NCBI GenBank assembly: GCA_022564515.1 | Contig: JADFLH010000012.1 | Span: 1 to 34,465 of the forward strand | DNA: 34,465 bases | Direction: 5' to 3' | Source of the DNA: Nitrososphaerota archaeon | GTDB lineage: Archaea > Thermoproteota > Nitrososphaeria > Nitrososphaerales > Nitrosopumilaceae | Shown here: in pieces, positions 6,241 to 10,212 of the stretch | Layout: each line of letters begins with the position of its first letter | How positions within the stretch are numbered: the stretch's first letter is position 1 | Notes under the pieces: generated by a model | Databases searched by the model: none | What the model was told of the DNA's origin: nothing | The model's input: the letters and a program-made list of their open reading frames with translations, nothing else | Program-made: the position numbers and the translations under genes

Positions 6241-7650
6241 ATGTCGAAAGTTTTTCATGAAATTGAAAAAAAAATTATCCTACTCTTAGATGAAAACCCA
6301 AAACTGACACCAAAAAAAATTGGAACATCAACTGGATTAACTCCTGATCAAATTAGACGAGGAATCGAATGGCTAAAGTTTAAGAAATTGGTGATTGTCG
6401 AAGAATCACAGCAGGTCTATCTTAGACTTGGAAAGAATGGGTTAGGTGCTAATTCTAAAGGTTTACCTGAACGGCAATTGATGGATTTACTCAAAGAAAA
6501 ACCTAGAAAATTAAACGAACTAAAACAAGAACTGAAATCAATCTTCAGTCCTGCCATGGGAATAGCAAGAAAAAATAATTGGATAGAAACCGACGGAGAA
6601 AATATTTCACTAAAAAATCCCCCATCAGATATTTTAGAAGAAAAAATTATTTCCAAAATCGGTAAAAATAAGATTCTAGTTAGTGAAATTGAGGATAAAA
6701 AAACCCTTGAATTTCTCAAAAAAAGACCAAATTTTATCATAGAGGAGATTGAAAAATCTCAAATAATTTCATTATCTGAAAAAGGAAAATCAATTTCTGA
6801 AACCGTGAAAATCTCTGAAGATGTTGTAGTAAAAGCTATAGATGTTGAAGCGGATGTTCCAAAAACTTTTGTTGCAAAAACTCATCCTCTAAAAGACATA
6901 ATTAATGAAATCAGAGAAATTTTTGTTACATTAGGTTTTACTGAAATTCTAGGAAAACTAGCTCAGCCTTGCTTCTGGAATTTTGATGCTTTGTTTACTC
7001 CTCAAGATCACCCTGCAAGAGAATTACAAGATACATTTTATCTTGATGGAGTAAACTCAAAAAAAATCGCTACACCTAAACAAATTCAACAAGTAGCTAA
7101 AGTACACAAGAATAGCTGGCGATACTTATGGAGTATAAATAAAGCAAGACAGATGGTTTTAAGAACACATACTACTTGTGATACAATAAAATTCCTAGCT
7201 GATCACAAACCTGATGAAGCAAGAGTCTTTTCACTAGGTAGAGTTTTTAGAAATGAAAAAGTAAGTTACAAACATCTAGTTGAATTTAATCAAGTTGAAG
7301 GAATTGTTGTTGGAAAAAATACAACTTTGAGAGACCTGATGGGGATTCAAAGGGAGTTTTTCCACAGGATGGGTCTAAACAAAATAAAATTTTGGCCTAC
7401 ATATTTCCCTTACACTGAACCTTCCTTGCAATCAATGGTATACAATGAAAGATTAGATAAGTGGGTAGAATTATTTGGAATGGGAATTTTTAGACCTGAG
7501 GTTACAAAACCTCTTGGAATTACAAAACCTGTCCTTGCATGGGGCGGAGGAATAGAACGAATTGCAATGTTAAAATATGGACTAGATGATGTTCGTGAAT
7601 TTTACAGTAATAACTTGAAATGGTTAAGGAGTGTAACAAAATGCCAGTAA
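6241..7650 (+). CDS. pheS: Phenylalanyl-tRNA synthetase alpha subunit
   Basis: Catalytic subunit of the heterotetrameric class II PheRS. Residues 1 to about 200 hold winged-helix modules (KLTPKKIGTSTGLTPDQIRR) that in archaeal and eukaryotic PheRS contact tRNA. The class II core follows: FWNFDALFTPQDHPARELQD, motif 2 around RVFSLGRVFRNE (about residue 327) and motif 3 LAWGGGIERIAML (about residue 431). Length 469 suits archaeal PheS. The 3' end overlaps pheT by 10 nt, so the subunits are made from one mRNA. Confidence 0.95.
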   Translation: MSKVFHEIEKKIILLLDENPKLTPKKIGTSTGLTPDQIRRGIEWLKFKKLVIVEESQQVYLRLGKNGLGANSKGLPERQLMDLLKEKPRKLNELKQELKSIFSPAMGIARKNNWIETDGENISLKNPPSDILEEKIISKIGKNKILVSEIEDKKTLEFLKKRPNFIIEEIEKSQIISLSEKGKSISETVKISEDVVVKAIDVEADVPKTFVAKTHPLKDIINEIREIFVTLGFTEILGKLAQPCFWNFDALFTPQDHPARELQDTFYLDGVNSKKIATPKQIQQVAKVHKNSWRYLWSINKARQMVLRTHTTCDTIKFLADHKPDEARVFSLGRVFRNEKVSYKHLVEFNQVEGIVVGKNTTLRDLMGIQREFFHRMGLNKIKFWPTYFPYTEPSLQSMVYNERLDKWVELFGMGIFRPEVTKPLGITKPVLAWGGGIERIAMLKYGLDDVREFYSNNLKWLRSVTKCQ

Positions 7651-9278
7651 TTGCACTTGAACTTCCAAGATTGCAAAAGCTAGTTGGAATAACTAATCGA
7701 AAAAAAATTGTTGAAATGCTTCCGTTTCTTGGCTTGGATATAGAATCTCAAGAAAATGATGTTGTTCGTGTAGAATACAGCCCTAATCGTCCTGATTTCT
7801 CGACAGATTTTGGAATTACCTTGAGTTTGCTAGGAATACTAGGGAAAAAAAAAGGAATACCAAAACTAAAAATCAAAAAAGTAAGTGATTATCAAATCAC
7901 AGTTGATTCATCTGTAAGTAAGGTGAGACCGTTTGTAACAGGAATTGTTGCACGATATGGAAAAATTGATGAAAAAGTTTTACAACAAGTCATTATAATG
8001 CAAGAAGATCTTCATTTTGGAATAGGCAGACGTCGCAAAAAATCTTCTATTGGCATTCATGATTTGGACACAATTTCTTTTCCATTTACTTATACAACAA
8101 CTTCAAGAAACCACAAATTTATCCCACTTCATTCATCCGAAGAAAACTCCATTTCTGAAATTCTACAAAATACTGAAGTTGGACAAGAATATGGACACAT
8201 TTTAGGAAACTCAACTAAAGTTCCAATCATAATTGATTCCATGGGAAAAACTGTTTCATTTCCACCAATTATTAATTCATCAATGACTACAGTAACAACA
8301 AAAACAAAAAATCTATTTGTTGAGGTTACAGGGACTGATAAAAATGGTGTTGAAGACATGTTAGCTGTTGTAGCTACAATACTTCAAAGTGCAGGATTTG
8401 AGCTTTGTACTGTAAAGATTTCAGGTGCAAAAAATTCAACCCCACAATTCAAAAAAAGACAAATCATTCTTAGCCAAAATTTAGTAAACACAATGTTGGG
8501 TTTGAGTCTTTCACCAAGAAAAATTGTTAGCGCCTTAAAAAAATCCAGACTTGATGCAACTACAAAAAATAAAAATATTATCTGTACAGTTCCAAGATAT
8601 CGATTTGATATATTTGGCCCAATGGATCTCGTTGAAGAAGTTGTCTTGGGTTATGGAATTGAAAATCTAGAATCAACTTCATCCCCCTCTCAAACACTAG
8701 GACAAAAAAACCATGATAACAATATCTTAAACGACCTTAGTCAAACAATGGTTGGTCTTGGCTACATGGAAGCTCTTAATTCAAGTCTGACAGGTAAACG
8801 AATACTTTACGATCTAACTAATCGTGATTCCTCAAACATAATATATGTAAAGAATTCTAAGAGTCAAGAACACACCATTCTTCGTGACTCGATTCTACCT
8901 GAATTAGTAAATAATCTTTCAAACAACATTCACGAACTTTATCCACAAAAACTATTTGAAATTGGAACTGTTTTTTTAAAAGGAAATCCAATTAAAGAAG
9001 AATTTCATTTAGCTTGTGTTAGTGCACATAACTATGCCAATTTTTCAGAAATAAAATCAATTTTACAATCCACATTAAAAACAGGATTTAATATAGAATG
9101 TAAAACAAAAACCTCATCCTATCCAACTTTTGCTGAAGGAAGTACAGCTGAAATAGTTGTTAATGGAAAATCATATGGATTTATCGGTAAGATTGATTCC
9201 AGCGTTAAAGAGAATTTTAAGATTAGAGTTCCAATCGTTGGCTTCGAAGTAAAACTATCTGGATTAATATTTGACTAG
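7641..9278 (+). CDS. pheT: Phenylalanyl-tRNA synthetase beta subunit
   Basis: Beta subunit of PheRS, with the short archaeal/eukaryotic layout: N-terminal domain with VEYSPNRPDF, a B3/4 editing-type domain (about 80-230), a B5 domain (about 270-345, ending VPRYRFDIFGPMDLVEEV) and a catalytic-like core (KNSKSQEHTILRDSILPEL). I choose ATG 7641 (MPVIALELPRL, 545 residues), 10 nt inside the end of pheS; an ATG at 7620 would add seven unlikely residues. The last codons contain ATTAATATTT, which may be the TATA box of the structured RNA downstream. Confidence 0.95.
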   Translation: MPVIALELPRLQKLVGITNRKKIVEMLPFLGLDIESQENDVVRVEYSPNRPDFSTDFGITLSLLGILGKKKGIPKLKIKKVSDYQITVDSSVSKVRPFVTGIVARYGKIDEKVLQQVIIMQEDLHFGIGRRRKKSSIGIHDLDTISFPFTYTTTSRNHKFIPLHSSEENSISEILQNTEVGQEYGHILGNSTKVPIIIDSMGKTVSFPPIINSSMTTVTTKTKNLFVEVTGTDKNGVEDMLAVVATILQSAGFELCTVKISGAKNSTPQFKKRQIILSQNLVNTMLGLSLSPRKIVSALKKSRLDATTKNKNIICTVPRYRFDIFGPMDLVEEVVLGYGIENLESTSSPSQTLGQKNHDNNILNDLSQTMVGLGYMEALNSSLTGKRILYDLTNRDSSNIIYVKNSKSQEHTILRDSILPELVNNLSNNIHELYPQKLFEIGTVFLKGNPIKEEFHLACVSAHNYANFSEIKSILQSTLKTGFNIECKTKTSSYPTFAEGSTAEIVVNGKSYGFIGKIDSSVKENFKIRVPIVGFEVKLSGLIFD

Positions 9279-9291
9279 GTGCACTTCATAA

Positions 9292-9460
9292 TGCCCTTGA
9301 GCAAGCACATAGACGGATTAGAATGATGTCGATCGTAATGATTCCAATGATTTCTAATTCACCCAGATGTGCTACATTGGGCAGCCCCGGTTAAAGATCT
9401 CAGGGAGGAGAATGGCTATCCCCAATGATCCTGTGCGAGTCAGAACCGGGGAACAATTCA
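9292..9460 (+). ncRNA. Two-hairpin H/ACA-like guide RNA candidate
   Basis: Hairpin 1: lower stem AGCACAT (9304-9310)/ATGTGCT (9367-9373), an internal loop (AGAC/ACCCAG), a 9-bp upper stem GGATTAGAA (9315-9323)/TTCTAATTC (9352-9360) with one G·U, and an apical region with TGATG and ATGAT as in kink-turns; ACA (9374-9376) follows directly. An extra TGCCC (9292-9296)/GGGCA (9379-9383) closes it. Hairpin 2: CCCCGGTT (9385-9392)/AACCGGGG (9444-9451), with CAGG/CCTG inside, followed by AACA. The ATTAATATTT at 9263-9272 is a TATA box at the right distance, and ATTTTTC follows the RNA. I found no RNase P, SRP or 5S rRNA signatures. The H/ACA assignment is inference; that this is a structured RNA is well supported. 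Confidence 0.6.
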
Positions 9461-9517
9461 TTTTTCAAAATAAATCTGATAAGGATTAAAAATACTAGCT
9501 CACAATTGCAGATAACA

Positions 9518-9924
9518 ATGGTAAATTACTGGCTGGCAAAACAGGAGCCAAAAAGTTATAATTTTGCTACATTGAAAAAAGAAGTGAAAACCGTTTGGGA
9601 TGGAGTTCATAACAATTTAGCACTAAAACACATCAGTAATATGAAAAAAGGTGATTTGATTTTACCATTCAGGAGATGAAAAACAAGCAGTTGGAATAAT
9701 GGAAGTTATTTCAAAATCATATTTAAATCCAAAAGAAAAAAAATGAAAGATTTCTTGTAGTTGATGTCAAGCACAAAAAAGAACTAGCAAATCCTGTTAC
9801 TTTGGCTGAAATGAAAAAACAAAAGAAATTCAAAAGTTGGGAATTATTGAGTGTGTCTAGATTATCCGTAATGCCTGTTCCAAAAGAAATTTGGAACTCT
9901 ATCATGAAGATGTCTGGAAAATAA
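9518..9924 (+). pseudogene. EVE-domain protein gene, broken by two frameshifts
   Basis: Three reading-frame pieces together give a complete EVE (PUA-like) protein. Piece 1 from ATG 9518: NYWLAKQEPKSYNF, TVWDGVHNNLA, MKKGDLI. Piece 2 from about 9663: YHSGDEKQAVGIMEVI. Piece 3 from about 9744: ERFLVVDVKHKKELANPVTL, ending RLSVMPVPKEIW and TAA at 9922. The first break lies in a TTTT run (9660-9663), the second in an A8 run (9736-9743). EVE proteins bind modified nucleobases. The coding signal is intact apart from the shifts, so this may be a recent pseudogene or homopolymer errors in an intact gene. Confidence 0.85.
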
Positions 9925-9972
9925 GCTTAGAATAATCGCTTTATTGATATATCCCATAGTATTATTAGAACT

Positions 9973-10212
9973 ATGGCAACTGCTTACATCCTAATAAATT
10001 GCGAACTAGGATCCGAAGAAGCAATCATACAACAGCTTAAAGATCTTGAAGGTGTCAAAGAGGTTCACGGAACTTTTGGAGCATATGACATTTTAGCAAA
10101 AATCGAATCTGATACCGTTGAAAAACTTAGAGAAACGATTACGTGGAAGATAAGAAAGATCGAAAAGATTCGATCAACATTAACTTTAATGGGAATTGAA
10201 GGCCAAACATAA
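9973..10212 (+). CDS. Stand-alone Lrp/AsnC ligand-binding (RAM) domain
   Basis: A 79-residue protein covering the alpha-beta sandwich of Lrp/AsnC regulators without the helix-turn-helix: ATAYILINCELGSEEAIIQQ, then GVKEVHGTFGAYDILAKIES and IRKIEKIRSTLTLMGIEG. Such domains form dimers and octamers and bind amino acids or modulate full-length Lrp proteins. TTTATTGATA (from about 9941) is a TATA box about 27 nt before the ATG. The gene 18 nt downstream has no promoter of its own that I can see and is probably co-transcribed. Confidence 0.9.
   Translation: MATAYILINCELGSEEAIIQQLKDLEGVKEVHGTFGAYDILAKIESDTVEKLRETITWKIRKIEKIRSTLTLMGIEGQT

Follow-up and report, generated by a model that had tools for sequence, protein, structure and literature searches.

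The closest described systems are two haloarchaeal box H/ACA hairpins of Haloferax and Haloarcula (HP1 and HP2 in the literature, also Hvo1 and Hvo2), described as homologues of stems II and III of Pf7/Pab40 (PMC2584109, PMC4652768), which have been assigned to the 23S rRNA pseudouridines Psi2621 (position 2586 in E. coli numbering) and Psi1956/1958 (1915/1917) (PMC2584109). In Pyrococcus abyssi, Pab91 guides the pseudouridine at U2685 in the region of the peptidyl-transferase centre (PTC) (PMC6138745). Published rules for archaeal H/ACA RNAs require 14–16 nt to the ACA box and put the GA stem at about 10 pairs, with a cut-off of −6 kcal/mol having been used for the duplexes (PMC4652768). The H/ACA-like sR207 of Pyrobaculum has been drawn with a 12/(13) fold, namely a 12-pair GA stem and 13 nt to the ANA, in which two closing pairs are disputed (PMC4652768). 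The literature searched contained neither a description of an H/ACA guide RNA in ammonia-oxidising archaea nor anything on the RNA presented here.

The window analysed, a stretch of 34,465 nt from a 1.5-Mb archaeal genome of the ammonia-oxidiser type, carries on its forward strand an H/ACA-type RNA with two hairpins (HP1 and HP2) at positions 9290–9457 (168 nt, or ~165 nt in round figures), where the covariance model R1 gave a match of 183.9 bits (G000:C69:9290-9457). It follows pheT (7620–9278), the product of which contains Pfam PheRS beta domains, and precedes a reading frame for an EVE domain from about position 9519. A preliminary description of the locus, made from the sequence alone, had proposed two hairpins downstream of pheT, each followed by ACA and having internal loops of guide size, as well as a TATA box and a T-run, and all of these were located in the expected place. 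The TATA-like box TTAATAT (9264–9270) lies in the last codons of pheT, ~25 nt upstream of the RNA start, and is kept in most, not all, relatives. The T-run at 9461–9465 is a possible transcription end; a search for a stem-plus-T terminator found none. The RNA stands directly behind pheT in many genomes and has moved away from it in other relatives, being found behind other sequences in L006–L008, L012 and L018. Three side observations were made in the window. The promoter box and the end of the pheT protein share sequence (9264–9278) in many relatives. Within 9519–10059, the start of the EVE domain (Pfam PF01878) is followed by two switches of reading frame, which may be frameshifts, errors of assembly or the mark of a broken gene. 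Rfam also gave two tRNA matches that ARAGORN had missed, at 1677–1764 and 1–44 of the reverse strand, one of them cut by the window end.

Folded singly, the sequence has an only mildly unusual energy (z −1.9, with 8 of 200 shuffles equally good), which, taken alone, is weak evidence for a structured RNA. Of 61 genomes, 28 (counting the home genome) matched the RNA in a plain DNA search, and exact-pattern matches outside the home genome fell mostly in Nitrosopumilus, Nitrosarchaeum and their relatives. Covariance-model searches extended this range to 235 of the 300 class genomes, representing 50 of 69 genera, and, with a second, broader model, to 117 of the 398 genomes from the phylum, 43 of which are listed outside the class. 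Twenty of these 43 out-of-class sequences were read directly; 15 keep the ACGG, ACCCA and ACA of HP1 at the same spacing, and the remainder are mostly HP2-like without a clear HP1. In an alignment of 27 sequences made by sequence with MAFFT (A2), 93.4% of the cells are paired and 19 of 35 pairs show two-sided changes, amounting to 66 two-sided cells compared with 21.6 in shuffles. When the partner was slid by one to three columns, pairing fell to 31–52%, a comparison that favours the structure, as it was drawn from the same family, though hardly by such a margin. A wide alignment, which was fitted to the covariance model and hence leans towards its structure, gave two-sided changes in 29 of 35 pairs and 241 such cells compared with 73.8 in shuffles. 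The covariance search over related genomes suggested at the outset thus revealed strongly covarying stems, and it is this comparison, with its covariation far above the controls, and not the folding energy, that settles that the RNA is real. One genome (G224) contains two full-length copies, on contigs C70 and C75 of one bin, reflecting either duplication or a strain mixture.

HP1 is enclosed by an outer stem that the preliminary description had not mentioned, in which GCCC (9293–9296) pairs with GGGC (9379–9382). Its GCC/GGC core is present in nearly all rows and compensated variants occur as ACCUC/GAGGU (L019) and GCCUC/GAGGC (L023); the stem rests on the reading of alignment rows, an automatic 4-bp search being too permissive as evidence. 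In the lower stem (9304–9310 with 9367–9373), six of seven pairs show two-sided changes. It is followed by an internal loop made of the left guide GACGG (9312–9316), which is GACGG or AACGG phylum-wide, and the right guide ACCCAG (9361–9366), also conserved across the phylum. The upper stem (9317–9323 with 9352–9358) covaries and is parted from the right guide by a spacer of two or three mostly pyrimidine bases, which is UC (9359–9360) in the home family and mostly UY across the class. This UC can pair with G9315–G9316 in the free RNA or with G2588–A2589 of 23S rRNA, a putative double role, and the upper stem starts at 9317 (or 9315) and ends at 9358 (or 9360). The kink-turn recognised earlier in this apex is present, with a GA strand (9325–9326) that is invariant or nearly so in alignments A1 and A2 and an AAUGA strand (9346–9350) in which UGA is invariant; the apical mini-hairpin AUCG..UGAU (9332–9342) is absent in some genera, and in L021 and L024–L028 a kink-loop takes the place of the kink-turn. 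ACCCAG begins 13 nt before the ACA box (9374–9376). Of the 34 class sequences, 33 show this spacing from ACCCA to ANA, as do 15 of the 20 from other Thermoproteota; those that do not show it lack the motif. Closed at A9317–U9358, the hairpin has a GA stem of 10 pairs and 15 nt to the ACA; with the two G-Y pairs counted, it has 12 pairs and the distance between the ACA and the upper-stem base is 13 nt, as had been measured before. The latter geometry is the same 12/(13) arrangement as in the published fold of sR207, an RNA with a shorter lower stem, of 3 bp, and with targets given as L2597/L2596. HP1 is degenerate or lost, with HP2 kept together with its GUCAG and ACA, in L107, L108, L118, L124, L128 and L129 of the Nitrososphaeraceae-like family f8 and in L123 and L125 of the reduced genus g4.

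HP2 has a covarying lower stem (9385–9392 with 9444–9451), a left guide AAGA (9394–9397), lengthened to AAGAG in some sequences, and a right guide GUCAG (9439–9443) conserved in both the class and the phylum. Its upper stem (9399–9404 with 9430–9437) is short and bulged, with 76% of the cells paired in A2 and 76–79% overall, which is weaker than in the other stems and counts against a guide function; the GA stem comes to ~8 on the 5' side, with bulges on the 3' side. A second kink-turn, to which the preliminary description did not refer, is formed by a conserved GA strand (9405–9406) and an AAUGA strand (9424–9428) with invariant UGA. The apical loop GGCUA (9414–9418) is kept across most of the class, a conservation for which guide function does not account. 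GUCAG begins 14 nt before the ACA box (9453–9455), a spacing to the ANA found in all 32 sequences scored among the 34 of the class. In both hairpins the ACA is invariant in the 27 close sequences and replaced by AUA in a few distant ones; guide columns are likewise among the invariant positions of A1 and A2. A long unconserved spacer separates HP1 from HP2 in family f2 (L106, L112/L131 and L117/L130), resembling in this respect the haloarchaeal hairpins, which are reported to be split.

Both hairpins therefore share one layout: a lower stem, then an internal loop, an upper stem and a kink-turn or kink-loop, with an ACA directly 3' of the lower stem. HP1, if closed at A9317–U9358, agrees with the published rules for both ACA distance and GA stem (15 nt and 10 layers), and HP2 agrees with that for ACA distance. 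The home genome encodes Cbf5 (E 2e-112) and Nop10 (E 3e-22). Given two kink-turn hairpins, invariant ACA, fixed guide-to-ACA spacing and the presence of Cbf5 and Nop10, the guide RNA identity first suggested for this locus gained support, and the element is almost certainly an H/ACA RNA. Very probably it is a two-motif archaeal box H/ACA sRNA that guides 23S pseudouridines, for which independent transcription, RNP assembly and modification are what we infer from sequence. L7Ae, Cbf5, Nop10 and Gar1 would form an RNP with the RNA and direct pseudouridine formation in 23S rRNA. A match to another RNA family had been named as a result that would speak against this identity; an Rfam search of the RNA, even at permissive thresholds, returned no family, its two chance-level matches falling outside the RNA. 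RNase P RNA and SRP RNA were considered and rejected, as covariance models place them on contigs C77 and C33, without a match here. The element most likely represents an unlisted, Thermoproteota-wide family of H/ACA guides with an unusual first motif.

Targets were sought in the 23S and 16S rRNAs of relatives, the home assembly being without rRNA. The predicted 23S sites are given in E. coli numbering, anchored at two published equivalences, 1956/1958 = 1915/1917 and 2621 = 2586 (PMC2584109). When the guides of each genome were matched to its own 23S rRNA, HP2 had its best conserved site at CUGAC.UC.UCUU of helix 69, and 2 of 200 shuffled guide sets gave one as good. The guides GUCAG and AAGA match one rRNA site, whose halves flank an unpaired UN in the canonical manner; shuffled guides found any site with a gap of 2 in 0.7–1.9% of trials, a post hoc and uncorrected rate. 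GUCAG would pair with C1916–C1920 (CUGAC) and AAGA with U1923–U1926 (UCUU), leaving U1921–C1922 unpaired at the canonical 14 nt from the ACA, and U1921 is for this reason the predicted pseudouridine. The right match lengthens to GAGUCAG/CUGACUC in the home family, and its energy was calculated as −4.7 kcal/mol for the 5-bp core or −9.2 kcal/mol with 7 pairs, the left duplex giving about −0.3 kcal/mol. Both the core right duplex, weaker than the −6 kcal/mol cut-off, and the weak left duplex count against guiding by HP2. On balance, HP2 quite probably acts on helix 69 and may well modify U1921. The 7-bp right duplex would place U1923 as a possible alternative, but in that register the left guide does not fit and the ACA lies 16 nt away. 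U1921 and U1923 correspond to the yeast pseudouridines Psi2264 and Psi2266 of snR3 and snR84, in helix 69 on the strand GACUCUC, the difference being that these RNAs are eukaryotic. The 19 genomes compared show no difference in either predicted target region, bar an insertion right after the helix 69 match in two of them (both regions are intact in 17 of 19), and guide–target covariation is not usable because the target regions do not vary. The two 23S insertions, of ~740–755 nt after helix 69, occur in L135 (G042, family f7) and L143 (G053, family f2) after CUGACUCUC and adjoin the predicted HP2 pairing site. Their ends (AGATATGGTCC) are reminiscent of group I introns, and an Rfam search at both insertions listed no intron.

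For HP1, a target of the form CTGGGT-UN-GTCT had been predicted from a pocket of AGAC and ACCCAG. None of the rRNAs tested from relatives contains this form, and the conserved left guide turned out to be GACGG instead of AGAC alone, with its complement CCGUC lying 5 nt, not 2, after CUGGGU. CUGGGU itself occurs once in the 23S rRNA of four of five relatives, within the PTC, and not at all in the four 16S rRNAs read; in the PTC it is followed by UUAGA and then by CCGUC. The guides GACGG and ACCCAG thus match one 23S site, around U2585/U2586, whereas shuffled guides found any site with a gap of 1–8 in 0.4–1.0% of trials (post hoc and uncorrected). The duplex energies are −8.4 and −6.2 kcal/mol. 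ACCCAG would pair with C2579–U2584 (CUGGGU) and GACGG with C2590–C2594 (CCGUC), making U2586 (or U2585) the likely target. Several findings count against guiding by HP1: five target nucleotides (U2585, U2586, A2587, G2588 and A2589) stay unpaired instead of the usual 2, the right guide begins 13 nt from the ACA, the guide base opposite U2585 is mismatched in most lineages, and the PTC sequence, where tested, is unchanged in f8 and g4 despite their degenerate HP1. In families f18 (UCA) and f6 (UUA), an extra spacer A can pair with U2585, so that U2586–A2587 remain as the UN without a partner; U2585 then faces the guide base located 14 nt before the ACA, which would put U2586 at the modification position, a reading that is consistent, if unproved. 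We consider it probable that HP1 binds the PTC, and would give an even chance that it modifies U2586. A further match of HP1, to 23S CGACUGUUUA near 1900, was rejected, as it contains one internal mismatch and needs bases of the lower stem.

Compared with Hvo1 and Hvo2, the RNA likewise has two H/ACA hairpins addressed to the PTC and to helix 69. It differs in that HP2 covers C1916–U1926 and predicts U1921 (or U1923), not U1915/U1917, and in the five target nucleotides that HP1 leaves unpaired. The likeness consists of shared target regions taken from the papers and compared by description, and the RNA is not filed as a Pab40 orthologue. With Pab91 and Pab40 it shares the kink-turn and a distance of 14–15 nt to the ACA, whereas in the productive folds published for them the GA stem comprises 10 pairs and the UN lies between the guides, and the left guide of HP1 is shifted.

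The main rival to pseudouridine guiding by HP1 is a role as an rRNA-folding chaperone arm like yeast snR30, which would hold C2579–U2584 together with C2590–C2594, with HP2 guiding or holding helix 69 as the large subunit is assembled. Such a role would suit target halves 5 nt apart instead of 2, and a right guide that sits basally in the pocket, at 13 nt from the ACA; snR30 likewise pairs basally in its pocket and is dormant for modification (PMC12095548). Like snR30/U17, HP1 is a hairpin of the H/ACA type whose two paired rRNA segments are not parted by a simple UN, the difference being that snR30/U17 targets 18S rRNA with both hybrid helices near the lower stem, and no relation is implied (PMC12095548). 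We regard this role as unlikely, given that U2586, within the gap, is a known pseudouridine of Haloarcula assigned to an H/ACA hairpin (PMC2584109) and that the guides of f18 and f6 can also pair with U2585, leaving U2586 beside the guide at 14 nt from the ACA. It may be speculated, with similarly low confidence, that HP1 forms a split and displaced pocket. Here the hairpin would split GACGGUC, the complement of 2588–2594, with GACGG in its left strand and UY in its right; target binding would open the two G-Y pairs, and U2585–A2587 would bulge from a three-way junction while the same RNA molecule holds helix 69 through HP2. The RNA would then act as a non-canonical pseudouridine guide, or else as a chaperone that connects two functional regions of the 50S subunit during assembly.

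Very unlikely is the use by HP1 of the AGAC/ACCCAG pocket, or of a shifted UUCACC/GACG pocket, on another RNA. The 16S site GGUGAA-UA-CGUC offers 6 plus 4 contiguous Watson–Crick pairs in most relatives, and the T-arms of tRNAs contain look-alikes. The 16S site is disfavoured because the UUC before ACCC varies (UCC, UUU, UUA, UCA, GCC), its bases changing uncompensated in L021, L024, L027, L028 and other families, and the 16S rRNA, where read, does not follow; the tRNA match is rejected, as it would require the conserved upper stem to open, and CUGGGU-UN-GUCU was absent from the rRNAs tested. Highly improbable is a conserved RNA of another kind, whether regulatory or otherwise outside the H/ACA class, or an element of the pheT 3' UTR, with ACA and kink-turns arising by chance: the position behind pheT would fit, and L7Ae is described as binding kink-turns of other RNAs too (PMC5539422), yet the RNA also stands behind other sequences, kink-turn, internal loop and ACA follow in that order at constant spacing in both hairpins, and both internal loops match 23S sites.

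With the element read as an H/ACA guide, an RNA without a matching Rfam family would fill a gap in the guide RNAs of the very abundant ammonia-oxidising archaea. Phylum-wide, it would address the PTC and helix 69, both of which carry known archaeal pseudouridines, and this yields concrete predictions at U1921 and U2586. The constant non-standard geometry of HP1, together with its apparent loss in some lineages that keep HP2, would probe the limits of the H/ACA pairing rules.
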